NCBI GenBank assembly: GCA_016742095.1
Contig: JACVCJ010000024.1
Location: 1-57,906 of the forward strand
DNA length: 57,906 nt
Direction of reading: 5' to 3'
From: Bacteroidia bacterium
Lineage (GTDB): Bacteria; Bacteroidota; Bacteroidia; CAIKAF01
Translations under genes and position numbers: made by a program
Notes under the pieces: generated by a model
Told to the model about the DNA's origin: nothing
Database searches by the model: none
What the model saw: only the letters and a program-made list of their open reading frames with translations
In this document: in pieces, positions 1 to 12,601 of the stretch
How positions within the stretch are numbered: the stretch's first letter is position 1
Layout of the letters: every line of letters starts with the position of its first letter

Positions 1-137
1 GGGTATGCCCGTACCGTGCCGGGTTGTAATCCCAGGTACTGCATTTCGCGTATCCATTGCAGGGGCGAGGGGCCTTTTATAAAAATGCCGCCTGCCGGGT
101 ATATATTGCCGCTGTGCTGTTTAATGCGTAATTCCAT
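1..137 (-). CDS. 5' end of a further component of the MoxR-vWA-bpX operon (partial)
   Basis: The frame opens with ATG at 137 and stays open for 45 complete codons to the window edge. It begins MELRIKQHSGNIYPAGG and continues through a short segment containing KGPSPLQW and YLGLQPG. The start lies inside the last 17 bases of the upstream vWA gene, the same overlapping arrangement that links every gene of this operon, so it is very likely a translationally coupled next member. MoxR-vWA-beta-propeller loci usually carry several bpX proteins in a row, so another bpX-type protein is the natural guess. Only the N-terminus is visible, which is not enough to assign a subfamily. Confidence 0.7.
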   Translation of the reverse strand, partial: MELRIKQHSGNIYPAGGIFIKGPSPLQWIREMQYLGLQPGTVRAY

Positions 138-2442
138 ACGATAAGATGCGTTGAATAAAAGGTTGAAGGTAACGCTGGCTGAATTCGCCTGCCGGCAGAC
201 TGAGCGTAGGCGTGCCGTCTTTATCGGGATGGTAATAATCCGAGCCGCAGAAACTGTTACCGGCCGCCAGGCCCAGGTCCGATTCCAGTACGCTGGGTAT
301 CCAGATGTCCGGGATGTTCAGGTCGCTGCTCTGCAGGTGCAGCATGCCTGTGCGCTGTACGCGTATACGGCTGCCGTCGTGGAAACGGAACAACAGGCGG
401 TTCTCCGTGGCGGCGGGTATCTGTGGGGTACAGTCTGTGCCGGCAGCTTCAAAACGTATGGTTTCGCCGGCGGATAATTCATGGTTATTCACGACCAGTG
501 TGCCCTTGCTGCTGATGAATATACGTGAAATGTTCTTCAGTACGGGATGAAAGGTACTGCTTACCCTAAATGCGTCCTGGTACTGCTGTTCGCGCTGCCG
601 GTATACCCGTATCATTTCTTTGTCCGGCGGGCCTTCGGTCTTTTCGATACTGCCGCTTTCGGGATCGATCTTCCAGCTCCATTTTGCATGCAGGTAGTAA
701 AAATGATCTTCGTGGAAAATGAAGTTCTGAAAGGAAGAGAACTGCCAGTCGGGAAACGGTATTTTTTTCAGGTGCCGTTGTCCGGTATCGATCAGGGTAA
801 TTTCCATGTTACGGGCATGGAAGATCAGCAGGTACAGGCTGCCGTTCTGCATGCGGCCCATTTCCATAGAGGTAGTAATGTAAGGCAGTTCATGGTACAC
901 CATTTCCCAGCCTTTACGGTTGCTGAGGCTGCCGGTATCGTAGGTACGCAGGATGCTTTTTTCGTTGTTGATATGATACAGTTGATGGTCCACGGGGATC
1001 TGCCTGCGTACGGAATGCTGGCCGGGATAGAGGAGAGGGCATACTTCTCCGGCGGGTTCCGCGGGGGCACTGCCCAGGGGCTTTTTCTTCGGCGGATTCC
1101 AGAGCTCTTCCAGGGGCAGGCGGATGGTCTGTATAAAGCGCAGACTGTTCTGCATACGTTTGTACAGGCTCACTTCGCCCGTCAGGTCTGTATGTATCCG
1201 GTAGCGTATGCGGTCCGGGTTCTCCTGGAGTACTTTCTGCATTTCGGGGCGTTTCAGCACCTCGCGCGTACTAATGAGCATCAGTTCCATTTTTTGTCCC
1301 TTATGTTCATCCAGGAATTGCTGCAGACCCTGTGCCGGGTGCAATACGGCTTCCACCTTCTGCATACCGTCGATGATGTCTGCGATCTCCCCGAATTGTG
1401 TTTCCGTACAGCTTTCTCCCAGCAGGAAGGCCCGGCAGCAGATATCGGTCTTCGGATGCCGGGCTATGGCCAGCATCAGGGCATGGGCAATGATCTTGGG
1501 CGTGCCCCAGTTTTTCAGAGAGATGTCCAGCAGGATGATGCGCTCCAGGTCGTTCGATTCCGGCGGTACCTCCCGGTGCAGGTACAGGGCCTCGTTATTG
1601 GCCAGGCGCGAGAGAAAAAGCAGGTCGTCATTGGCATATTCGCTGATGAGCAGCCGGTCGTAATCGCCTTTGTTCGTAAGGTCGGACACACCGCCCATCG
1701 GCTGCATGCTGGGCAGGGTATTGTGAAACGGAATGCTGAGTCCCGACCAGATACGGCGGATGAGGCTTCCCGCATGAAAAGTGCGGGGATCGCGTTCCAG
1801 TTCTTCCACGAAATCTCCGGGGACGGTATCTGTTTCCGCGGCGTCGGGCAGGGGAAAGGCTTCGGCGTCCAGGTCGGGTACGCCGGCCATGGCGTTCAGT
1901 ATCTTTTCCGGGCTGGGGTAACGGCGATGCAGCAGGGCCATGGTGCGGCATTCCTGTTCAAAAGCCACGGTAGTGTTCGGGCGGAGTTGATTTAATTTCC
2001 CGCCCGTAAGCCGTCCTTCGTTGTATTGTTTCAGCAGTTGCCGCAGCATTCTGGCCGACTGCTGGTTATGGCATTTTTCAAAAATGGTGCGGAACAGCAG
2101 CAGCTTGCGTTCCCCGCTTTTATAGGAGGCGGGCAGGCTGCCCAGCGTTTTCATGAAGGCAATGCAGGGCTCCATATCGTTGCGGGTATGTCCTTCGATA
2201 TGGGCAGACATAATATCTTCCACCTGCTGTATGAGTACGTTCGAAACGGGATTGGTAGCCGCAATGCACATCAGCAGGGCCCCGAAGGGCGGAATGCCTT
2301 CCGGTGAAAGGTAAGAAAGTATATGCATCACGTGTTCGCGGTAGGCAATGGTCATGCCGTTGCGCACGGCAATTACACCTTCGTTCTCTTCCCATACCCA
2401 GAAGTCGGTTCCCCTGGCCTGTAAAAATTCGTAAAGACTCAT
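121..2442 (-). CDS. vWA-domain / C-terminal beta-propeller-like protein of a MoxR-vWA-bpX ternary system
   Basis: A 773-residue protein. The start at 2442 is chosen because its ATG overlaps the TGA of the upstream gene as ATGA; a longer open frame to 2547 lies inside that gene. Residues 1-250 are mostly helical. Residues 250-290 hold a GGVSDLTNKGDYDRLL segment that I associate with vWA proteins of MoxR systems. Residues 300-420 look like a vWA fold with a degenerate metal site, DISLK at 306-310 instead of DxSxS. From about 450 to the end the sequence is rich in beta strands and aromatic residues, as expected for a beta-propeller (bpX) domain. There is no signal peptide, so it is probably cytoplasmic and a partner of the MoxR ATPase two genes upstream. 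Substrate and output are unknown. Confidence 0.72.
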   Translation of the reverse strand: MSLYEFLQARGTDFWVWEENEGVIAVRNGMTIAYREHVMHILSYLSPEGIPPFGALLMCIAATNPVSNVLIQQVEDIMSAHIEGHTRNDMEPCIAFMKTLGSLPASYKSGERKLLLFRTIFEKCHNQQSARMLRQLLKQYNEGRLTGGKLNQLRPNTTVAFEQECRTMALLHRRYPSPEKILNAMAGVPDLDAEAFPLPDAAETDTVPGDFVEELERDPRTFHAGSLIRRIWSGLSIPFHNTLPSMQPMGGVSDLTNKGDYDRLLISEYANDDLLFLSRLANNEALYLHREVPPESNDLERIILLDISLKNWGTPKIIAHALMLAIARHPKTDICCRAFLLGESCTETQFGEIADIIDGMQKVEAVLHPAQGLQQFLDEHKGQKMELMLISTREVLKRPEMQKVLQENPDRIRYRIHTDLTGEVSLYKRMQNSLRFIQTIRLPLEELWNPPKKKPLGSAPAEPAGEVCPLLYPGQHSVRRQIPVDHQLYHINNEKSILRTYDTGSLSNRKGWEMVYHELPYITTSMEMGRMQNGSLYLLIFHARNMEITLIDTGQRHLKKIPFPDWQFSSFQNFIFHEDHFYYLHAKWSWKIDPESGSIEKTEGPPDKEMIRVYRQREQQYQDAFRVSSTFHPVLKNISRIFISSKGTLVVNNHELSAGETIRFEAAGTDCTPQIPAATENRLLFRFHDGSRIRVQRTGMLHLQSSDLNIPDIWIPSVLESDLGLAAGNSFCGSDYYHPDKDGTPTLSLPAGEFSQRYLQPFIQRILSYGITH

Positions 2443-3182
2443 AGGCCCGGGTTTTTCATGGTTTCTATGCTCAGGCGGAAGGAGCCCGTACGGAGCGGTT
2501 TTATATCCTTTTTCGCTACGCGGAACCAGCTTCCGGGTTCGTCCCATACGATCCAGCTGTCGTTATCCGGGTCCAGCCGTCGGTTGATCACGTCGCCGAG
2601 TACCTGCCATTCAAGATCATAACCGGCCGGCAACAGCTGGTTGTTCCTGCGCCAGTATACATTACCCGGTAAGGGCAGCAGGGGTGTACCGGTGATCAGT
2701 GCCTTGTGTGCCCCGGCAAGCGTCCATTGCAGGTTTTGCAGGCGTATGGCGGGAGCGCTGTGCATATATTTTTCCAGTGCCGTTACATCAGTAAGCAGGG
2801 CAAAGGCTTCGTATTCTTCTTCGGAAGGGACCAGCTGTATACGTATCGTTTCTGTTACGGCGGCTATGGGCGTGCGTGCCGGCAGTTGCAGGGGCAGTCC
2901 GCGTTCGATGGGTGTCCAGAGCACCGTGGGTACCGTGGTTTCGGGCAGCAGGCTTCCTTCGGGAAAAAGATTCCGGCCCGACTGATAATAGAGTTTTTTA
3001 GAGGGAATAGAACGGATATCGGTACTTTGCAGCTGTTCTGCACTGAGGTCGCGGACCCAGATGTCGTTTCCGTCGAAGGCGATCTTCAGGTTGCTCCAGT
3101 GCCGGATACGGCCGAGCAGGTCTGCCTGTTCCGTACCTATGCGCATAAAATGCGTCAGATCGTCTGCAGGATTTGCTGCCAT
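2439..3182 (-). CDS. bpX0-like component of a MoxR-vWA-bpX ternary system
   Basis: A 247-residue cytoplasmic-looking protein. The start at 3182 overlaps the end of the MoxR gene by 28 bases and has GAAGG a few bases upstream; an internal ATG at 3146 is possible. The visible pattern is an early IWVRDL strand, then a segment with GRNLFPEGSLLPET and PTVLWTPIERGLPLQLP. As I recall it, this fits the Pfam family 'MoxR-vWA-beta-propeller ternary system domain bpX0'. It sits between MoxR and the vWA protein and overlaps both, which implies stoichiometric co-expression. In these systems it is thought to be an adaptor between ATPase and effector or propeller parts, but nothing here shows a catalytic site. 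The family call rests on pattern memory plus context. Confidence 0.62.
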   Translation of the reverse strand: MAANPADDLTHFMRIGTEQADLLGRIRHWSNLKIAFDGNDIWVRDLSAEQLQSTDIRSIPSKKLYYQSGRNLFPEGSLLPETTVPTVLWTPIERGLPLQLPARTPIAAVTETIRIQLVPSEEEYEAFALLTDVTALEKYMHSAPAIRLQNLQWTLAGAHKALITGTPLLPLPGNVYWRRNNQLLPAGYDLEWQVLGDVINRRLDPDNDSWIVWDEPGSWFRVAKKDIKPLRTGSFRLSIETMKNPGL

Positions 3183-4285
3183 AAGCCTTCAATTTCGGTT
3201 TGTACGAACTGTTTGTGCTCGCTGTTGCGGATCCAGTTGCAGCGGGTCTGTACATAGCGCAGTTTATCCTTGATGATGTTCTGTTCCTCGAAGGAAAGGC
3301 TTTCGTCGTTCCAGCGCCCGCGCAGCAGCTGCACTTCCCGGATCAGTTCCTCGGCATTGGGTACCTTGTTGAAACGCGCCTGAGGATGGGCTCCGGGACT
3401 GTCGTCCTTTTCGATGATCCCGTCGATGATGCCGGCCAGGATCTCGATCTGTTCTTCGGTGTCCCAGATGTATTTCAGCACCCAGAGGTCAGAGAGAATG
3501 GCTTCCGTACGTCCGCAGAGCACGGCGCTGGCTGCCAGCAGGTTCTGTATCTTAACGGCGCGGCGGTCCGACACTTTTATACCCGTATTGCGCAGGTTGT
3601 GCACCAGGTCTACGTATTTGCCGCGTATGGGCGAAAGGTCCACATGGCGGCACTGGCGCTGCAGTTCTTTTATCTCGTCGGGATGTATGCCGGGGCGTTC
3701 CCCGCCGTTCCGGTGTTCCAGTGCCCAGCCGGCCAGCAGTACCTGTTCCAGCAGGTCGGTATCGGCATAGTCGCAGCGTACGCGCAGCAGAAAACGGTCC
3801 AGCAGGGCGTTCAGCGCCTCGTCTTCGGGCAGTACGTTGCTGGCGCCCACGAACATGAGTGCAGGCAGTTTGCGGGTCTCTTTGCCGCGGCGGAAGATCC
3901 TTTCGTTCAGGGCCATCAGCAGACTGTTCAGGATGGCGCTGTTGGCGTTGAATATCTCGTCCAGGAACACCAGGGAGGCTTCCGGCATCATGCCTTCGGT
4001 ATTGGTCACCAGTTCCCCTTCCTTAAGCCGCCGGATATCGAAAGGGCCAAACAGTTCGTTGGGTTCGGTAAAGCGGGTGAGCAGGTATTCGAAATTGCGT
4101 CCTTCTTCCACGCAGCCCGAAAGCTGGCGTACAATGGCGCTTTTGGCCGTGCCGGGAGGGCCCAGCAGGAAAATATTCTCACTGGCCACCAGGCTGATGC
4201 CCAGCAGATCGATGATCTCGTTCTTGCCTACAAAGGAGGCTTTTACATAGTTCAGTACCTCGTTCAGTTTTTCTGTATGGTTCAT
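3155..4285 (-). CDS. MoxR-family AAA+ ATPase of the bpX ternary system
   Basis: A 376-residue AAA+ ATPase of the MoxR/RavA group. Walker A is GPPGTAKS at 42-49, Walker B LVFLDE at 105-110, sensor 1 near 146-150 (VGASN), the arginine-finger helix LLDRFLLR at 161-168, and a likely sensor 2 region around SDRRAVK at 239-245. The C-terminal 90 residues are helical and charged. MoxR ATPases are chaperone-like motors that typically work with vWA-domain partners, and such a partner is encoded two genes downstream. The start overlaps the upstream stop as ATGA. All ATPase motifs are intact, so the protein should be active. No transmembrane segment or signal peptide is seen. Confidence 0.92.
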   Translation of the reverse strand: MNHTEKLNEVLNYVKASFVGKNEIIDLLGISLVASENIFLLGPPGTAKSAIVRQLSGCVEEGRNFEYLLTRFTEPNELFGPFDIRRLKEGELVTNTEGMMPEASLVFLDEIFNANSAILNSLLMALNERIFRRGKETRKLPALMFVGASNVLPEDEALNALLDRFLLRVRCDYADTDLLEQVLLAGWALEHRNGGERPGIHPDEIKELQRQCRHVDLSPIRGKYVDLVHNLRNTGIKVSDRRAVKIQNLLAASAVLCGRTEAILSDLWVLKYIWDTEEQIEILAGIIDGIIEKDDSPGAHPQARFNKVPNAEELIREVQLLRGRWNDESLSFEEQNIIKDKLRYVQTRCNWIRNSEHKQFVQTEIEGLWQQILQTI

Positions 4286-4917
4286 AGTTCTGTACGTGTG
4301 TTAAAGCCGGGCCAGAATACTTCGTCGTATATGCCGAGGGCATTGCGTACGGCGGGTTCCAGACCGGGGAGAAGCGCCGTTTTTTTTCGGCGGCAGGTTA
4401 TGATGCGGTTTATGTATAATTGTTTCAGGCAGGGGTTGTGCAGCACAGGCTGCAGGTCGGCGTCCTCCGGGGTTTCGTGCAGGACCAGGCCCGAATAGTG
4501 CCAGTGTTGCAGATGGGTTAAGAGCAGATTGTTCAGGGGGTCGAGCGGGTCGATCAGCTGAAGCTGCTGCAACACATCGGGCAGGAATCGCAGGCAGAGA
4601 TCGGCAGAGAGCAGGGCAGCCGCATCGGTGTTCCCTTCGTATGCCGGAAGTAAAGCGGGCAGGTCGGCACTTTTGTGTTCGCGGTACAGCAGTACCTGTG
4701 CGGCAATATACAGGGTATGTGCGGCCCAGCGTGCGGCATCGGCATCAAAGGCCGGGGCTTCGCCGGGATATTCCCTGCTTTCGGAGGCATATTCGCTCTG
4801 CAGGAATTCCAGTGTGGCCGCTTCATCTTCTGCGCTGATGCGGAGCAGGCGTGCATACAGGATCACTTCCTCGCTGCTGCGTAATGTACGGATCATGGAG
4901 TACAGCGGGAGATTCAT
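4282..4917 (-). CDS. Helical protein, first gene of the MoxR-vWA-bpX operon
   Basis: A 211-residue, mainly alpha-helical, acidic protein with no signal peptide and no catalytic motif that I recognise. It starts MNLPLYSMIRTLRSSEEVILYARLL and has leucine-rich helices around residues 80-150 (LLTHLQHWHYSG). Its stop overlaps the MoxR start by four bases (ATGA), so it belongs to the system rather than merely neighbouring it. Small helical accessory proteins encoded next to MoxR are common in these loci and may load or regulate the ATPase; that role is inference. No clear TAnnTTTG promoter was found in the 115-base gap upstream. It could also be a diverged TPR-like or adaptor protein. Confidence 0.6.
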   Translation of the reverse strand: MNLPLYSMIRTLRSSEEVILYARLLRISAEDEAATLEFLQSEYASESREYPGEAPAFDADAARWAAHTLYIAAQVLLYREHKSADLPALLPAYEGNTDAAALLSADLCLRFLPDVLQQLQLIDPLDPLNNLLLTHLQHWHYSGLVLHETPEDADLQPVLHNPCLKQLYINRIITCRRKKTALLPGLEPAVRNALGIYDEVFWPGFNTRTEL

Positions 4918-5032
4918 GCCAAAGAAAGGGATAGCACAGGTTTCATGTGATAGTTACGTTCTTAAGGGGCTAAAATACTTAAATTGAACGGTGTCTGCAA
5001 AATAAAGTATATAAATAACAGGGCTGAATTCT

Positions 5033-5677
5033 TCAGAAAAGTGTATCCAGTTCCTGCTGTATGTTTTGCCGGGCGCGACTTTCGTATGCCGTACGGAAAT
5101 AAAGCGTTTTAAAAATAAAAGGCATTTCCAGGAAATGCTGCAATACTTTTTTACGGCCCGGACCGTATACAGGATCGGGATATATAGCGTATTCTCTGCG
5201 TACCTGTGCGGCGTAGGTGCGGTACTGTTCCGGGCTGCTGCCCAGTATGCTCAGGTCGGCATCGGTAAAGAGATCGATATCTGTGTCACCGCTTGCTGTA
5301 TGACCTTTCGTGGCCAGGATCATCTGCCGGCAGCGTTCCATGCCCGTTGAAGGATATGCAAGTGCAGACAGGCGTTCCCGGGCCAGCTCCGCACTTTTTT
5401 CTTCATTGTCTTTCCGGCTGACCTTGTACACGATATCGTGGTAAAAAAGAGCGAACAGCAGGGTATCGGGATCGGAGAACCATTCTTTAACGGGTTCCAG
5501 AACGTTCAGCATCTGCTGCAGGTGTTGCAGTGTGTGGTAATGTCTGTCGGCTGCAGTATAGGCTTCCAGTAATTCGCTGCTGAAATTGCGTATACGCATC
5601 GGATCGTCCGTGTAACGCTCCAGTAATTTAGTATATATATCCATCGGTGCGGGCAGGCCGCCGGCAATTAATGACAT
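5033..5677 (-). CDS. HD-superfamily metal-dependent phosphohydrolase-like protein
   Basis: A protein of up to 214 residues resembling the 'predicted metal-dependent HD superfamily phosphohydrolase' group (COG4339). Metal ligands are visible as RHYHTLQHL (residues 45-53), FYHDIVY with the HD pair at 80-81, and a later acidic segment DLFTDADLS. The start at 5677 overlaps the upstream lipoprotein gene by 10 bases. An internal ATG at 5644 (MDIYTKLLERY) gives a family-like N-terminus and may be the true start. The substrate is unknown; family members are often annotated as N-methyl-D-aspartate receptor NMDAR2C-like or simply hypothetical. It is probably cotranscribed with the lipoprotein upstream and is separated from the bpX operon by 115 bases. 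Confidence 0.75.
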   Translation of the reverse strand: MSLIAGGLPAPMDIYTKLLERYTDDPMRIRNFSSELLEAYTAADRHYHTLQHLQQMLNVLEPVKEWFSDPDTLLFALFYHDIVYKVSRKDNEEKSAELARERLSALAYPSTGMERCRQMILATKGHTASGDTDIDLFTDADLSILGSSPEQYRTYAAQVRREYAIYPDPVYGPGRKKVLQHFLEMPFIFKTLYFRTAYESRARQNIQQELDTLF

Positions 5678-6117
5678 GGCTCTTTGCTAAGCTGTATTCC
5701 TTCTTTGAAAAGCACGTTGCGGCGGTCCGAAAACACGAATTTCATTTCGCGTTCCTCCATTTCGCCGTAACCTTCGGTGAGTGTATTTTCAGAGGCCAGG
5801 AAGATGACCTCGCGGATCGAGTTCACGCCTTCGGAAAGGTATCGGTAGTCGGCAAAGATCGTATCACCGGACACGGTACCCGTGATGGTGCCCGTATTAG
5901 CGTCCTTTTCGAAAAGATGGTAGCTGAGCTGCCCCGAGATCCGGTCTTTTTTCCGCTCAAAGCTGAGTACTACCGTATCCTTATTGGCAGTACTGCGGTA
6001 ACAGTACATACCGTCCCTGTTCTCTGCCGCCGGTGTTTCAGGAGTTTTACCGGCCGGACCTTTACCGCATGCGCCAAGCAGAAGCCCACTGCAGAGGTAC
6101 ACCAGTGCCTGTTTCAT
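5668..6117 (-). CDS. Small lipoprotein of unknown function
   Basis: A 149-residue lipoprotein. The start at 6117 is preferred over 6132 because AAAGGAAG lies just upstream and the product then begins with a clean signal peptide, MKQALVYLCSGLLLGAC, with the lipobox LGAC at the cleavage site. The mature part contains two or three beta strands with repeated 'xGTVSGDTIFAD'-type text and ends in a charged segment. This looks like a small beta-barrel or lipocalin-like fold that reports conditional expression or binding, but no specific family is recognised. It overlaps the HD gene downstream. Probable location is the outer-membrane periplasmic face. Confidence 0.75.
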   Translation of the reverse strand: MKQALVYLCSGLLLGACGKGPAGKTPETPAAENRDGMYCYRSTANKDTVVLSFERKKDRISGQLSYHLFEKDANTGTITGTVSGDTIFADYRYLSEGVNSIREVIFLASENTLTEGYGEMEEREMKFVFSDRRNVLFKEGIQLSKEPCH

Positions 6118-6278
6118 ATCGCTTCCTTTCATACGAACCTAAGATACGATTATTTGCCCGGACGGCAACGGATATTAGGGAAATTTAGGATGGAGCATAA
6201 AGCCTCCCGGAAATACCCGGAACGTACGGCTTTTTTATTTAGATAGAGAATATTAATTTACTATGTGGTAGAGTGTTT

Positions 6279-6303
6279 TATATTTGTATACGGCTTATAT
6301 TTG
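6279..6303 (+). promoter_or_regulatory. Tandem Bacteroidota -7 elements upstream of the repeat-containing T9SS cargo gene
   Basis: Two perfect TAnnTTTG matches, both TATATTTG, lie at 6279-6286 and 6296-6303, 17 bases apart. The second ends 21 bases before the ATG at 6325. No well-spaced TTTG -33 element was found for either, so this is a candidate rather than a firm promoter. Confidence 0.5.
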
Positions 6304-6324
6304 TACATAATAAATAATATACCT

Positions 6325-7575
6325 ATGAAATCCTCTTTTATACGAGTTCTTTGCGGTCTGCTGCTTTTTATTCCGGCATTGCTCAGCGCGCAGACCGAAT
6401 ACCTGGTAAAGATAAATCCGGCCGACGGTTCTTTTATAAAAATAGACAGTATACCGGGTGTGAAATGGATACTTAGTAACCCGGAATACGCCGCGCTGGA
6501 TTACAATGCACAGCGCTATACCTTCTGCGGCAGGTATGCTACGCCGGGAAATCATCTTTTCACCCTGGATGCGATTACCGCACAGGTACTGCATGCGCCT
6601 CCCTTCCCGGTCCTTGCCGACGCGCAGGATAATGTGATGAACCTGCACTACGACCAGCTTTCGGGTTTACTCTACGGCCTGCACTGGGACCATTCCGAAA
6701 ACCGGGAATACCTGGTACAGGTACACCCTGTAAACGGTAATTTTACCCTTATAGACAGTATACCGGGTGTGAAAATGATCATCTCTACTGCTTTTAACTC
6801 TGCACAGCACCGCTACATTGTGCATGGACTGGATGCTTCGGGCCAGGGTAAACTTTATTCTGTAGATGTAAATACGGGAACGGTTGTTTCATCACCGGCT
6901 TTTCCTCAACTTACTCCGCCGAATAAAATAACACATCTCATCTACAATAATACGCTCACAACACTCTACGGTCTGCTCTGGAACCATACAGAACAGCGTG
7001 AATACCTGGTACGTGTGGACGTACAGACCGGTGCGCACACTCTCATTGACAGTATCTCCGGACTGGCGGGCATACCGATGGGTGTGGACAATGTAACGCT
7101 GGATGAGATACAGGGCCGTTGCATCGTGGGCGGACTTAGTCACCAGGGCCAGAACCGGCTGTACACCATAGATTTGTCTACGGGAGCGGTGTTGCATGCG
7201 CCGCTGTTCCCCGGTCTTACCCCGCCCGACAATGTTATTAAAATGCGGGCCGGTCTTTCTAACGGAGATATAGTGGCCCTGCACTGGGAAAGCAAGACCG
7301 CTTCTGGGGTTTCGCTGGAAGAAAGCGCCACGCAGAACGCTCCGCTCCGGGTATTCCCGAACCCGTACAACGGACAGGCCATTGTACAGCTGGACAAAGA
7401 GCATGCGGAAATTTATTTTAGTATATACAATGCCGCAGGAGAGGAGGTACATTCCGGGAAACGGCAGCATGTGGCACAGATCGTGCTGGACCGGCGTTTG
7501 TCTGCCGGTGTGTATTTTATCCGGGTATGGGCGGCCGGCAGGGAACTGGGCACACAAAAACTGATCGCAGAGTAA
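6325..7575 (+). CDS. Secreted repeat protein with T9SS type A sorting domain
   Basis: A 416-residue protein starting at 6325, where the ATG begins a signal peptide, MKSSFIRVLCGLLLFIPALLSAQ. The body consists of three roughly 100-residue repeats, each opening with a variant of EYLVKINPADG and passing through IDSIPGVK. Each repeat contains a LYGLHWDH or similar strand, so the fold is likely a beta-propeller built from large units. The C-terminal 80 residues form a T9SS type A sorting domain (FPNPYNGQAIVQLD, then YFIRVWAAGRELG), so the protein is exported by the Por machinery and attached to or released from the surface. Ligand and function are not evident. The convergent neighbour begins 3 bases after the stop. 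Confidence 0.85.
   Translation: MKSSFIRVLCGLLLFIPALLSAQTEYLVKINPADGSFIKIDSIPGVKWILSNPEYAALDYNAQRYTFCGRYATPGNHLFTLDAITAQVLHAPPFPVLADAQDNVMNLHYDQLSGLLYGLHWDHSENREYLVQVHPVNGNFTLIDSIPGVKMIISTAFNSAQHRYIVHGLDASGQGKLYSVDVNTGTVVSSPAFPQLTPPNKITHLIYNNTLTTLYGLLWNHTEQREYLVRVDVQTGAHTLIDSISGLAGIPMGVDNVTLDEIQGRCIVGGLSHQGQNRLYTIDLSTGAVLHAPLFPGLTPPDNVIKMRAGLSNGDIVALHWESKTASGVSLEESATQNAPLRVFPNPYNGQAIVQLDKEHAEIYFSIYNAAGEEVHSGKRQHVAQIVLDRRLSAGVYFIRVWAAGRELGTQKLIAE
6442..6774 (+). repeat. Intragenic direct repeat (24 identical bases, 309 bases apart)
   Basis: The same 24 bases, beginning ATAGACAGTATACC, occur at 6442-6465 and 6751-6774, in the same reading frame and 103 codons apart. A diverged third copy begins near 7047. 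Identity at the nucleotide level suggests recent duplication or gene conversion between repeat units of the encoded propeller-like protein. Confidence 0.8.
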
Positions 7576-7578
7576 GGG

Positions 7579-9159
7579 TCACTGGCCTGCCGGGGGATTG
7601 GGGACCGCCTCAAAGGATGTACCGTTCCACAGGAAGGTTTCACCGCGCACTTTGAACAGGTCGCCGTTCTTCAGGTCCGGAAAACGGGGAATAAACCCGC
7701 CGGACACGGCCACCTGGGCGTTCAGGCGTTTGGCCAGGGTAAGCAGGCGCGGGTTTATACGGTAATCGGCACCGCAGAGAATGAGCAGCACCGGTTTGGT
7801 GATTTTTTCGGCCAGCGCAAGATCGCGCGGTACCGCGTAATTATCGGCGATCCAGATCAGTTTGCTGCAATCCGGGCAGGCGGTTTGGGCGGCCAGCAGG
7901 GCTTCCAGGTCATTTTCGGGCAGATCGCCCCCGTAACCGGCCTGCAGGGCTTTAAAAGCCGTGGTCTCAATGCTGTCGTACGTGTTTCCGTAGTAAGTGT
8001 AGATGCCCAGCGTATTCCCGATCTCCTTATCGAAGTCGGCTTTACGGTCGCCATCGTTAAAAAAGGCATAGAAGTCTATTTTTTTCGAATTGGTCTTTAT
8101 ATACGTAAGCATATCGGCAATGTAAGGGCCCATGCTGCCGGTAACGTCAAAAGCGAGGGCCGCGTGCTGCAGGTTTTGCTGGTTATTCAGCGTTTTGCTT
8201 ACGATCTTGTGCTTTTCGTGCAGCTGCCATTCGTCGAGGTTCAGCGCCACCCCGCGTATATTGATCTCGCCGCAGCCGGGCATTTCGTCCGGTTTCAGCG
8301 GAAGGCCCAGTGAGAAATGCACACGCAGCTCCTGGTACACATTCACCTTACGACCTTTGTACACGGCAGGTTCCCACACGGGCATATGTTCCAGGGCATC
8401 TTTTATGGCCTCTTCGCAGCCGTGGCCCAGGGCACGTTTTATCTTAAAATCCTGTATGCCTCCCGCCCGGTTCACTACGTACGATACTTCCGAAACGCCG
8501 CGGACCTTCTTTTCTATCGCTTCTTTCGGGTATTTGATCCCGAGGTTGAGATACCTGGCCAGGTCGCATTCATTATTGCCGAAACGCGGCGCCACGTCGT
8601 AATGCTCCAGGGGATCGCTGTCATAAGTTGTCAGGTTGCGTACCCGCTTGCTTTCGGACTTCAGACTGTCATCGGTACCCACGTATTCGGCCACTTTCTT
8701 TATCTCTTCGGCCCGGGTCTTCGGATCGGAAGGAATGCGGTAATACACACAGAACCCGTGAAAATAGGTCTCGGCCGTTTCCAGGTCTTCAGCGCCGGTC
8801 TGTTCGGTGTTCTGCAGGTAGATGAGCTTGTTGTCGAAAAGTCCGGGCAGCAGTTTTTCCAGGTTCTTCCAGCGCTGGGTATTCAGTGCGTACTGGTCAA
8901 AATCTTCACTGCGGCGGAACCGCGTATACAACAGGTCGATGCGGATAAGGGTAGACCGCCTCAATTCGTCCAGGACACTGGGATCGAGGATCTGGGGTTC
9001 GGCATAGGGGCAGGACAGCAATACCGTTCTTTCGCCCGGCGCCGGCCTGGGTTCCTTGAATTGTACAATACTGCGGGGCGCGGCATCTGCCGGGTTCTGT
9101 GACCGCAAAGGAATAAGGACGCCGAAAAACAGGAGAAGCGGAAGAAACAGGGCTTTCAT
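7579..9159 (-). CDS. Secreted TonB_C-vWA fusion protein
   Basis: A 526-residue protein with start ATG 9159; a TTG at 9168 in frame is less likely. A signal peptide (MKALFLPLLLFFGVLIPLRS) is followed by an uncharacterised 170-residue region, then a TonB C-terminal-like domain at about 197-285 (YPKEAIEKKVRGVSEVSYVV, MPVWEPAVYKGRKV). After it comes a vWA domain at about 335-480. The metal site DVTGS (338-342) and the downstream GGDLPEN element look intact, unlike the vWA protein of the bpX operon. TonB_C domains normally contact outer-membrane receptors and vWA domains bind partner proteins through Mg2+, so this is probably a periplasmic or surface adaptor. Specific partners are not visible. Confidence 0.75.
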   Translation of the reverse strand: MKALFLPLLLFFGVLIPLRSQNPADAAPRSIVQFKEPRPAPGERTVLLSCPYAEPQILDPSVLDELRRSTLIRIDLLYTRFRRSEDFDQYALNTQRWKNLEKLLPGLFDNKLIYLQNTEQTGAEDLETAETYFHGFCVYYRIPSDPKTRAEEIKKVAEYVGTDDSLKSESKRVRNLTTYDSDPLEHYDVAPRFGNNECDLARYLNLGIKYPKEAIEKKVRGVSEVSYVVNRAGGIQDFKIKRALGHGCEEAIKDALEHMPVWEPAVYKGRKVNVYQELRVHFSLGLPLKPDEMPGCGEINIRGVALNLDEWQLHEKHKIVSKTLNNQQNLQHAALAFDVTGSMGPYIADMLTYIKTNSKKIDFYAFFNDGDRKADFDKEIGNTLGIYTYYGNTYDSIETTAFKALQAGYGGDLPENDLEALLAAQTACPDCSKLIWIADNYAVPRDLALAEKITKPVLLILCGADYRINPRLLTLAKRLNAQVAVSGGFIPRFPDLKNGDLFKVRGETFLWNGTSFEAVPNPPAGQ

Positions 9160-9274
9160 CCCGGACAAGATAACAAGAATTGAGGCTTGACGCCGTTTTT
9201 TTACATTTTTTAGTTTCCCCGCAATTTGTGAGCCATGCCGGCCGTACAGGCATAAATTTGTTATCTTCGGGCCT

Positions 9275-10927
9275 ATGAAATACCTGTTTCTATGCTGTTC
9301 TCTGTTGTGGGGCGCTGTAAGCTCCGCCCAGCATGCCTACGGCCCCTTTACGCATGCCGATACCCTGCGGGGAGCGCTTCGTGCCGAACGCAGCTGCTTT
9401 GATGTTACGCATTACGATCTCACCATCGACCAGATCGATTTTAAAAAGAAATTCATTCATGGCAGTAATATCGTAACCGCACGTATCACAGAGCCCACGC
9501 AGCGCATACAGCTCGATCTCTTTGCCGGGATGAAACTGCTGAAAGTAAGCCAAGGTAAAAAAAAGCTGCAGGTACAGCGGGACGGGAACGCCTTTTTTAT
9601 CAGCTTGCCGCGCATGTATCAGCCGGGTGAAATGCTGCAGCTGACGGTAGAATACGAAGGTGCGCCGCAGGTGGCAAAGAATGCACCCTGGGACGGCGGT
9701 TTTGTATGGACCAGCGATCCCTTCGGCTATCCCTGGCTCGGGGTGGCCTGCCAGGGCACGGGGGCCAGCCTGTGGTGGCCCAACAAGGACCATCTTTCCG
9801 ACGAGCCCGACAGCATGCACCTGCATTATGTAATGCTGAACGATTCCCTGTGGTCGGTCGGCAACGGCACCTACCTGGGCAATTCCGAACGGAACGGCAA
9901 AACCTTCAGCGATTACCGCATCTCGTATCCCATCAATAATTACAATGTATCGCTGTACGTAGGACACTACAATTACCTCAGCGATGTATACATTAACGGT
10001 ACAGATACCCTGGACCTGGCCTACCTGGTGATCAAAGGCCATGAAGAAAAAGCCCGTGCACAGTTTGCCATGGTACCGGAAATGCTGGCCTGCTTTGAGA
10101 AATATTTCGGGCCTTATCCTTTTTTTAAAGACGGTTACGGACTGGTGGAAACCCCGTATGCAGGTATGGAACACCAGAGCGCCATCGCCTACGGCAACCG
10201 CTATATGAAAGGCTACCTGGGTCGCGATTATTCGGGCATCGGCCTGATGTTCGACTTCATCATTGTGCATGAGACCGGGCATGAGTACTGGGGCAATAAC
10301 GTAAGCATGCAGGACATTAACGATATGTGGATCCACGAAGGATTCTGCACCTATGCCGAGGTATTGTATGCCGATTGCGTGTACGGTGAGGAAAAAGCCC
10401 TGCAGTACATCAATCACAAAAAACAGATGGTACAGAACGACCGGCCGCTGATCTCCCCGCCGGGCGTAAATGCCGAACCCACGGGCGATATTTATCCCAA
10501 AGGGGCCCTGTTGCTGCATACGATACGCGGTGTACTGCAAAACGATGCTTTGTTCCTGGACATTCTGAAATCGATGCAGGATACTTTTGCATTGAAAAAC
10601 ATTACAACCGCCGATGTTATTGCGTATTTCAATACACGCAGCGGCACCGATCTTACGCCCGTCTTTAACGCCTACCTGCATTACATAAACATTCCTGTCT
10701 TTGAATACGGCCTGCAGGAACAGAACGGCCAATGGATGCTGAAGTACCGCTGGAAATGCGAAGAACCCGGTTTCCGCATGCCGCTCGGGGTATGGGTCGG
10801 CAGTACGTACAAAATGCTGCAGCCTTCGGCCGAATGGCAGACGACAGCGCTTTCGATCTCAGCCGAGACCGGTTTTGTCATCGACACCGATCATTTTTAT
10901 ATTCAGACTAAAAAAATACGCCCATGA
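9275..10927 (+). CDS. M1-family metallopeptidase, secreted
   Basis: A 550-residue gluzincin aminopeptidase-like enzyme. A signal peptide ending near SSAQ (residue 19) precedes an N-terminal beta domain of about 200 residues. The active site has AGMEHQ at 296-301 in place of GxMEN, HETGHEYW at 332-339 as the zinc motif, and the third zinc ligand E355 in WIHEGF. The enzyme is predicted to remove N-terminal residues from peptides in the periplasm or outside the cell. The length is short for M1 because the C-terminal ERAP-like domain is absent, which is usual for Bacteroidota. The stop overlaps the next start as ATGA, so it heads a four-gene operon with a CPBP protease and a split 5'-nucleotidase. 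Confidence 0.9.
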   Translation: MKYLFLCCSLLWGAVSSAQHAYGPFTHADTLRGALRAERSCFDVTHYDLTIDQIDFKKKFIHGSNIVTARITEPTQRIQLDLFAGMKLLKVSQGKKKLQVQRDGNAFFISLPRMYQPGEMLQLTVEYEGAPQVAKNAPWDGGFVWTSDPFGYPWLGVACQGTGASLWWPNKDHLSDEPDSMHLHYVMLNDSLWSVGNGTYLGNSERNGKTFSDYRISYPINNYNVSLYVGHYNYLSDVYINGTDTLDLAYLVIKGHEEKARAQFAMVPEMLACFEKYFGPYPFFKDGYGLVETPYAGMEHQSAIAYGNRYMKGYLGRDYSGIGLMFDFIIVHETGHEYWGNNVSMQDINDMWIHEGFCTYAEVLYADCVYGEEKALQYINHKKQMVQNDRPLISPPGVNAEPTGDIYPKGALLLHTIRGVLQNDALFLDILKSMQDTFALKNITTADVIAYFNTRSGTDLTPVFNAYLHYINIPVFEYGLQEQNGQWMLKYRWKCEEPGFRMPLGVWVGSTYKMLQPSAEWQTTALSISAETGFVIDTDHFYIQTKKIRP

Positions 10928-11862
10928 TCAACCGCTTTCTTCAACGGGCTTCCGATATGCGCCTCAACATCCGTTCTGTGGGCGGAGGTTTCCTGTTTGT
11001 ACTGGGCATGCTGTTCCTGGGACAGATGCCGCTGAGCCTGGTGATCGGCAGCCTGGCATCGGGGCATAATGTAACAGTGCAGGACGTGAACGATAATCCC
11101 GAAAAGTTTGGCCTCTCTACGGAAATTTACCTCTCCCTGGCCATGTTCTCCTTTATACTGGCCATGGCGGCGCTCTGGTTCGTGATCCGTTTTTTTCACA
11201 ACGGCCGCTTCCGGCAGATCGTTTCACCCAACCCGCGCCTGCGCTGGGGCCGCCTGCTTTTGCCGGGACTCATCTGGTTCGTATTTTCGGCAGGCTACGA
11301 TGTGTATTCCTGGTACATGCATCCCGAACTGTACACCCTTACGTTCCACTGGAAAAGTTTTTTGCCCCTGCTGCTCATCGGGCTGTTCCTGCTGCCGTTC
11401 CAGACCTCGTTCGAAGAATTTTTCCTGCGCGGTTACCTGATGCCCGCCGTTTCATACGGTACGCGCAACGCCATTCCGGGACTGCTGGTATCGGCCACCG
11501 TATTCGCCCTGATGCATTCCTTCAATCCCGAAGTGGACAAGTACGGTTTCCTGACCATGTTTCCCTATTATTTCGGCTTTGGTTTTTTCCTCGGACTCAT
11601 TGCTGTATGGGACCAGGGGCTTGAAATACCGCTGAGTTTACATTATTTTAATAACCTGTATTCCCTGTTAATCGTTACCTTTGAAGGCAGTGCGCTCCGG
11701 ACCAGTGCGGTGTTTACCCTGAAGGAAATGGACATGCAGGCATCGATGATCTACTTTTACATCTCCATGCTTGTCATCACCTTCCTGTGTATGCTCTTCT
11801 GCCGCTGGAAATGGCCGCCCGCTTTAAAAGTACGTGAGAATAATGAAGGGGTACAGGAATAG
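10924..11862 (+). CDS. CPBP-family intramembrane glutamic endopeptidase (Abi/CAAX-protease-like)
   Basis: A 312-residue polytopic membrane protein with about seven hydrophobic segments. The three conserved CPBP motifs are present: EEFFLR at 164-169 (catalytic glutamates plus arginine), FALMHSFN with H198, and SLHYFNN with H240 and N243/244. Family members include Rce1-like CAAX proteases and bacteriocin-immunity proteins; the substrate here is unknown. It overlaps the M1 gene by four bases and is followed by a 5'-nucleotidase C-terminal-domain lipoprotein starting one base after its stop. All catalytic residues are retained, so activity is likely. Confidence 0.88.
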   Translation: MINRFLQRASDMRLNIRSVGGGFLFVLGMLFLGQMPLSLVIGSLASGHNVTVQDVNDNPEKFGLSTEIYLSLAMFSFILAMAALWFVIRFFHNGRFRQIVSPNPRLRWGRLLLPGLIWFVFSAGYDVYSWYMHPELYTLTFHWKSFLPLLLIGLFLLPFQTSFEEFFLRGYLMPAVSYGTRNAIPGLLVSATVFALMHSFNPEVDKYGFLTMFPYYFGFGFFLGLIAVWDQGLEIPLSLHYFNNLYSLLIVTFEGSALRTSAVFTLKEMDMQASMIYFYISMLVITFLCMLFCRWKWPPALKVRENNEGVQE

Positions 11863-11863
11863 A

Positions 11864-12601
11864 ATGATTGCCTTTGCAGGCATTTTGCTTTTTTTGACGA
11901 CAGGCTGCTCCACAGGTAAACCGCAGCTTACCGAAAAGTCATACATATACGTAAAAAAGGAAATGCCGGCCGATCCGGCCATGATCCGCACCATACAGCC
12001 TTACACACAGCAGATCGAACGTATCCTGAACGAAGCCATCGGGTACGCGCCGCAGTCCCTCAGTAAAGGCAAACCCAATGCTCCGCTGGGCAATTATATT
12101 TCGGACCTGCTGCTCGGTTTTGCCCGCAACCGCAGCGATATACCCCGCGCCGATATGGCCATTTTCAATAACGGCGGACTGCGGACCTCCATACCGGCCG
12201 ATTCGGTACGCATACGCGATATCTTTGAACTGATGCCCTTTGAAAATGCCCTGGTACTGGTGAAGATGCCGGGCGATTCCATCCTGAAAATAGCGCCCTA
12301 CCTGCTGGAAAGGGGAGGAGAACCCGTAGCGGGACTCCGTTTCCATTCGGCTAACGGACAAACGGAATGCTTCCTGGTGGACGGTAAGAACGTAGAGGCG
12401 GGACAGAGTTATTATGTACTTACCTCCGACTACCTGGCTGCGGGTGGCGACCGTATGTATTTTTTCGGCGGACTGCCCCGGGTATCCCTGAACATAAAGA
12501 TGCGCGACGCCATCATCGACGCCATGCGCAATGACTTCCGCAACGGACAGTATGTACGTGCAGAGGCCGACGACCGCCTGCTGATCAAAAAAACGAAGTA
12601 A
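11864..12601 (+). CDS. Lipoprotein carrying only the 5'-nucleotidase C-terminal domain
   Basis: A 245-residue protein starting at ATG 11864, one base after the upstream stop, with AGGAA about eight bases before it. An earlier in-frame start at 11843 is possible but would precede a normal lipoprotein signal (LLFLTTGCS). The rest matches the substrate-recognition domain of 5'-nucleotidases: an NYISDLLLGFA segment, FNNGGLRTSIPADSV, and a final YYVLTSDYLAAGGD. In the usual enzyme this domain follows the metallophosphatase domain on one chain. Here the catalytic half is the next gene, whose ATG overlaps this stop as TAATG. The two halves probably form one membrane-anchored enzyme that releases nucleosides. 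Confidence 0.85.
   Translation: MIAFAGILLFLTTGCSTGKPQLTEKSYIYVKKEMPADPAMIRTIQPYTQQIERILNEAIGYAPQSLSKGKPNAPLGNYISDLLLGFARNRSDIPRADMAIFNNGGLRTSIPADSVRIRDIFELMPFENALVLVKMPGDSILKIAPYLLERGGEPVAGLRFHSANGQTECFLVDGKNVEAGQSYYVLTSDYLAAGGDRMYFFGGLPRVSLNIKMRDAIIDAMRNDFRNGQYVRAEADDRLLIKKTK

Follow-up and report, generated by a model that had tools for sequence, protein, structure and literature searches.

The gene at 7579..9159 on the minus strand of the analysed window (the whole stretch of 57,906 nucleotides of DNA from an uncultured Bacteroidota bacterium) encodes a TonB C-terminal domain (TonB_C) and a vWA domain on one chain, and this fusion is both real and rare. The domain order is signal peptide, N-terminal domain (N-domain), TonB_C, vWA and a C-terminal beta-strand tail. 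The parental architecture appears to have been N-domain plus vWA, into which TonB_C would have been inserted later, and the product may act as a soluble periplasmic adaptor. Proteins with a TonB_C domain are usually assumed to be energy transducers. In this case the domain would be a module within an exported adaptor, so that the label “energy transducer TonB” from annotation pipelines would mislead.

Gene and domain architecture

Counted from its ATG at 9159, the reading frame codes for 526 aa, as indicated by the ORF list, the sequence itself and a full-length orthologue in another genome. The ORF list also gives a longer frame of 529 aa (7579-9168) that begins at an alternative TTG at 9168; the ATG, which the original prediction had chosen as well, is the likelier start. 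All residues below are numbered from that TTG; subtracting 3 gives ATG numbering. The orthologue comes from another genome in the family (genome G011, locus L008), matches aa 4-519 of the window protein with 37% identity (E 5.6e-99) and has the same domain order, with its TonB_C recognised by Pfam at E 2e-12. Because this full-length orthologue with identical architecture exists in a second genome, the fusion is not an artefact, and a chimaera or assembly error is ruled out. The signal peptide, TonB_C and vWA domain are thus joined on one chain as originally proposed, but that inventory, while right about TonB_C and vWA, had missed a further domain near the N-terminus (roughly aa 46-146) and the N-domain plus vWA parentage.

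A whole-protein model built from six sequences (mean pLDDT 64.5, pTM 0.44) is good for the N-domain and the vWA domain, middling for TonB_C and poor for the linkers. Searching with this model in Foldseek returned the TonB C-terminal domain 5lw8 as the best match (E 9.7e-4), followed by OmpA-like domains and vWA proteins. A PDB sequence search with the window protein gave two weak TonB matches only (E 0.1 and 0.14). The C-terminal tail (aa 500-522, 7603..7671, minus strand) is modelled with beta-strands at 504-507, 510-514 and 519-522.

The N-terminus of the window protein carries a lysine, a hydrophobic stretch, a ..LRSQ end and no lipobox (inspection and a home-made heuristic), and looks like a cleavable signal peptide (aa 4-23 in the 529-aa numbering, 9100..9159, minus strand), in line with the original prediction. 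Signal-peptide-like N-termini were called in 75/79 family ORFs by a permissive heuristic, and the other four comprise two that are cut off and two under the hydrophobicity limit; the same permissive heuristic found a lipobox in 0/79. Since the N-terminal 45 residues of the window protein contain no histidine, there is no Ser-His-Leu-Ser motor motif in them. A type IX sorting domain was not matched by Pfam in the window protein, nor did it occur among 25 of the 27 families listed for 71 family members.

The N-domain (aa 46-146, 8731..9033, minus strand) was delimited from a domain model, Foldseek and VIA-align, and Pfam gave nothing for these residues, whether on the window protein or on the N-domain alone. 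Folded by itself (aa 40-150, 71 sequences), it reached a pLDDT of 93.0 and a pTM of 0.84, with the element order beta-alpha-beta-alpha-beta-alpha-beta. In Foldseek, the top 19 rows all fall among OmpA-type or peptidoglycan-binding domains (with the names OmpA, OprF, SiiA, MotB, PA0833, FopA1 and Pal) or Dot/Icm outer-complex chains; the best E is 1.7e-3, and none is at or below 0.001. The VIA-align superposition on 3td5 covers 101 residues with Z 7.3 and rmsd 3.6, unrelated Toblerone-fold enzymes being tied at 6.8. Compared by hhalign with a profile of 14 OmpA domains from its own genome, the N-domain scored 18.3 (probability 3.75%, 44 columns only), a weak match that beats 60/60 permuted controls (maximum 15.9) and whose register differs from the collinear full-length register of VIA-align. 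OmpA-like domains bind diaminopimelate via an Asp and an Arg. In the N-domain, R99 is invariant in 71/71 sequences; where the Asp of the diaminopimelate site would be expected, none stands out as conserved, though the register is unsure. PF00691 had no match in the window protein, in the N-domain alone, or among 25 of the 27 families listed for the 71 members. The modelled N-domain appears OmpA-like in topology, and is a candidate relative of OmpA by fold only.

The TonB_C domain (aa 212-287, 8308..8535, minus strand) is matched by PF03544 with E 7.6e-10 and 39.6 bits against a cut-off of 24.6, so that the HMM scan proposed as a check of this domain was passed; NCBIfam tonB_Cterm is under its cut-off (20.7 vs 27.1 bits). 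In VIA-align, aa 198-289 superpose on TonB 6i97_D with Z 9.8 and rmsd 2.2 over 89 residues, and the sequence keeps the YP motif and the W-x-PA...KGR end. Between the window protein and the G011 orthologue, TonB_C is the best conserved part (37/83 aligned positions or 45% identity, compared with 33% for the N-domain and 41% for the vWA domain), which argues that it is under selection. TonB C-terminal domains take their targets by beta-strand addition, according to the available text of PMC12204202. The window's own genome has eight PF03544 matches. Three of the other TonB_C proteins of this genome were read by eye. L162 has the make-up of a classic TonB (membrane helix, proline-rich stalk), and L163 and L165 are small proteins that carry a signal peptide and little more than TonB_C, so that an exported, anchorless TonB_C is not unusual in this genome.

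The vWA domain (aa 331-493, 7690..8178, minus strand) is recognised by fold: in the model, aa 331-489 superpose on the CLCA1 vWA domain 6pyo_B with Z 11.4 and rmsd 3.4 over 136 residues (VIA-align). The Pfam model VWA_4 matches aa 404-458 under threshold (19.1 bits vs a cut-off of 27), and the original call of a vWA domain therefore holds for the fold but not for the profile. The original prediction had named the failure of either domain model as its refutation, and for vWA this has formally happened. In an alignment of 84 vWA rows, which excludes the f11 branch described below, D341, T343, S345, D372, E418, N419, E422, D442 and D449 are invariant (84/84). They include the D, T and S of MIDAS motif 1 (D341-V-T-G-S345, 8134..8148), E418 and N419 of MIDAS loop 2 (GGDLPEND, aa 413-420, 7909..7932) and the MIDAS residue D442 (7843..7845), all on the minus strand. 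The third residue of a canonical MIDAS site is a threonine. Loop 2 of the window protein has none; among the relatives the loop of the third MIDAS residue reads GG(D/E)xPEN, position 415 being D in 59/84 and E in 19/84, so that D or E stands at the threonine position in 78/84. The D-x-T-x-S motif and the distal D thus appear to be kept and the threonine loop replaced, and the description of the vWA domain as apparently intact was mostly right, with this loop as the exception. The conserved residues suggest that the domain may bind a divalent metal.

Distribution of the family and history of the TonB_C insert

Among 16 genomes of the same family, the full architecture occurs only in the window's own genome and G011. 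G012 and G013 have two genes each with N-domain and vWA and no TonB_C, 11/16 genomes have TonB_C-type matches only, and G001 has no match; the vWA profile is found in six genes of 4/16 genomes. Outside the window's own genome, a whole-protein search of the phylum yielded nothing but TonB_C matches, a consequence of scoring three candidates in each genome; separate vWA and N-domain profiles were therefore used. Across a phylum sample of 395 genomes, the vWA profile matched in 3 at E 1e-15 (the own genome included) and the N-domain profile at E 1e-5 in the own genome only. A first scan of named genomes found no relatives; a later one gave 107, of which 80 were kept, with titles that name Flavobacteriales, Crocinitomicaceae, Hymenobacter, Chitinophaga, Aureispira, Vicingaceae, Schleiferiaceae and others. 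Loci L064 and L090 were taken as the same genes as those on G011:C11 and G012:C7. In the fetched loci, 106 ORFs match the vWA profile and 89 of these also the N-domain profile, repeats of one gene being counted.

The members scanned singly with Pfam numbered 71, namely the window protein, five of its family and 65 of the 80 loci; two repeats, five loci with no N-domain match, a truncated one and seven near-copies were left out. Of the 71, 43 had VWA_4 and 29 had VWA_CoxE, both at E up to 0.5, and 2 had TonB_C. A home-made TonB_C profile matched 3/98 ORFs, one of them a repeat of the G011 gene. The architecture is as uncommon as the original prediction had supposed and, since most members have no TonB_C, this domain is not essential to the basic task of the family. 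The core of the family appears to be a predicted exported protein of N-domain plus vWA, sparsely scattered over Bacteroidota, and its N-domain has no Pfam name. Four long relatives (L127, L130, L132 and L139) have vWA matches and an N-terminal half off the N-domain profile; they may hold another N-terminal domain. Two loci titled Sphingomonadales (L104) and Cycloclasticus (L114) nest among Bacteroidota rows in the vWA tree, and their contigs are probably mislabelled or from contaminated metagenome bins.

In the alignment, TonB_C is located in the linker between N-domain and vWA. This linker is the variable part of the family, with 8 to 193 residues over the 89 ORFs that match both profiles (repeats included), an arrangement consistent with TonB_C being the later insert. 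A tree built from 96 vWA domains groups the window protein with that of G011 (support 100/95) and places two Hymenobacter proteins as their sister (99/90); the window branch is long (1.4), so that its placement next to Hymenobacter is not beyond doubt. A profile of five Hymenobacter linkers scored 25.4 against TonB_C, above 100/100 permutations (maximum 18.4), and 22.50 against the window and G011 linkers, barely exceeding the permuted maximum of 22.45. These scores weakly suggest that the Hymenobacter linkers may be decayed TonB_C copies. Pfam at E up to 10 found no TonB_C in the Hymenobacter loci L172 and L173, nor in L098, L112, L075 and L072. Single linkers gave nothing convincing against TonB_C, the best being L112 with a probability of 14.5%, and a further thirteen linker groups had top scores of 14.0 and 15.1. 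On these comparisons, which are no more than suggestive, TonB_C could have been inserted before the window lineage arose and be in decay elsewhere.

The linkers of L072, L075, L098 and L112 may also hold a decayed TonB_C-like domain. As a group they scored 26.0 against TonB_C, with 0/80 permutations as high. Leaving out L112 lowers the score to 15.6, with 5/80 permutations as high, so that the signal hangs on L112, which carries it for the group.

Gene context and a related ECF sigma branch

The gene is convergent with a plus-strand gene (6265-7575) whose product has DUF6923 repeats and a sorting tail for type IX secretion, three bases lying between their ends, and divergent from an M1 peptidase gene that starts at 9275 (Pfam). 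Genes bpX0/bpX1, bpX2, bpMoxR and bpX4 of a MoxR-vWA-beta-propeller ternary system were identified by Pfam at 121-4917 on the minus strand, cut by the contig end; no gene there was identified as the vWA component of that system. MoxR-vWA systems are treated in PMC7159879, whose main text, in the part available, leaves TonB unmentioned. A link of our protein to these genes is not favoured, because the protein is predicted to be exported and different genes surround the orthologue in G011. Over the 80 loci, no conserved partner gene was found: the commonest flank neighbour occurs in 15/80 and the commonest directly adjacent family in 13/80. A same-strand neighbour lies within 80 bases in 34/80. 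With no neighbour conserved across these loci, an operon or partner drawn from gene context was dropped.

A homologous vWA domain occurs in f11, another family of the same class, where the vWA profile matches at E 1e-10 in 13/61 genomes. In 12/12 fetched f11 loci (L046, L047 and L049-L058), the gene immediately upstream of the vWA gene codes for an ECF sigma factor, as identified by Pfam and NCBIfam for one locus. The five f11 vWA proteins inspected have one hydrophobic segment near the N-terminus, and these proteins look like putative anti-sigma proteins with an extracytoplasmic vWA sensor, paired with the ECF sigma factor. A tblastn search with one f11 sigma factor found no match in the loci of the 80 relatives. 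The f11 proteins share the D-x-T-x-S, E-N and D motifs with the window protein but differ from it in being apparently single-pass membrane proteins beside a sigma gene, with no N-domain match and no TonB_C found.

Proposed role and alternatives

Our favoured reading, held tentatively, is that an N-domain plus vWA protein gained TonB_C as a further surface for binding peptides and works as a soluble adaptor in the periplasm. The protein would be exported by its Sec signal peptide and stay soluble in the periplasm, where the vWA domain would hold one partner through a divalent-metal site. The N-domain, apparently OmpA-like in topology, would take a second ligand, maybe at or near peptidoglycan, and TonB_C, placed between the two, might capture extended peptides, TonB-box-like or other, through beta-strand addition. 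Such an adaptor would be passive and unenergised, bridging envelope components and transmitting no force. Counted against it are the lack of any adjacent gene family conserved beyond 13/80 loci, the scarcity of TonB_C among the members (2/71 by Pfam) and the fact that the N-domain resembles OmpA in fold only. The docking protein of the original prediction was a fair guess at what a soluble chain with two domains of binding type might be; the accompanying link to energy delivery is not supported, given an apparently cleavable signal peptide, an internal TonB_C, no proline-rich stalk and no Ser-His-Leu-Ser motif (as that motif is described in the available part of PMC12204202).

A somewhat unlikely alternative makes TonB_C a passenger, in which case N-domain and vWA would do the job and TonB_C would be a mere spacer or a decaying domain. 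The wide variation of the linker, the Pfam-grade presence of TonB_C in only 2/71 members and the sister-lineage Hymenobacter linker, which resembles TonB_C by profile and is missed by Pfam in L172 and L173, all agree with this; the TonB_C of the window and G011, however, keeps its motifs at an identity above that of the rest of the protein. It is improbable that the protein works as an extracellular or surface adhesin through its vWA domain. vWA domains are often adhesive and the protein is predicted to be exported, but no lipobox was called in the 79 family ORFs, no type IX sorting domain turned up in the Pfam results above, and TonB_C and OmpA-like folds are periplasmic elsewhere. Very improbable, too, is a regulated decoy or brake, in which a free, unenergised TonB_C would occupy the TonB boxes of outer-membrane transporters while the metal-dependent vWA and the N-domain set when and where, e.g., at peptidoglycan or upon an envelope signal; if so, the homologous vWA of the f11 ECF sigma/anti-sigma pairs would be this sensor coupled to gene expression.

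It is very unlikely that the protein is an energised force transducer of TonB or vWA type, its N-terminal helix staying in the inner membrane and contacting an ExbBD or TolQR motor. The presence of TonB_C speaks for it, as does the proposal, in the available text of PMC12204202, of inner-membrane-tethered vWA force transducers with a periplasmic vWA head in a Ton/Tol-like setting, in Bacteroidetes among others. Those proteins are described there as having a transmembrane helix and, in one family, a Ser-His-Leu-Ser motif, and in them vWA replaces the TonB domain, whereas the window protein has both on one chain. TonB itself (PF03544) shares with the window protein the C-terminal-domain fold and the YP motif but has an inner-membrane anchor, a motor motif and a proline-rich stalk; in the window protein the histidine of the motor motif is missing, a folded domain takes the place of the stalk, and TonB_C is internal with vWA after it. 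No motor genes were found among the Pfam-scanned neighbours at 121-12601. With anchor, motor motif and stalk absent and TonB_C internal, energy transduction is unlikely, and an energy transducer was rejected.

The adaptor reading can be set beside other envelope systems. OmpA, Pal and MotB peptidoglycan-binding domains appear like the N-domain in topology (Foldseek, VIA-align). They differ from it in the PF00691 match, absent among 25 of the 27 families listed for 71 members, and in the Asp of the diaminopimelate site, for which the N-domain has no evident counterpart. TssR, from the type VI secretion membrane complex of Bacteroidota, is, as far as the available text of PMC10781749 describes it, an envelope protein whose vWA domain lies in the periplasm, and can be likened to the window protein by that description; it belongs to a five-gene membrane complex, whereas no such cluster was found near the gene studied here (Pfam, ten neighbours). 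No paper title or abstract on a protein of this architecture was found in a search that mostly left subscription literature outside. The possible signalling branch, with the vWA domain on putative anti-sigma proteins, makes the envelope role of the family in Bacteroidota testable.
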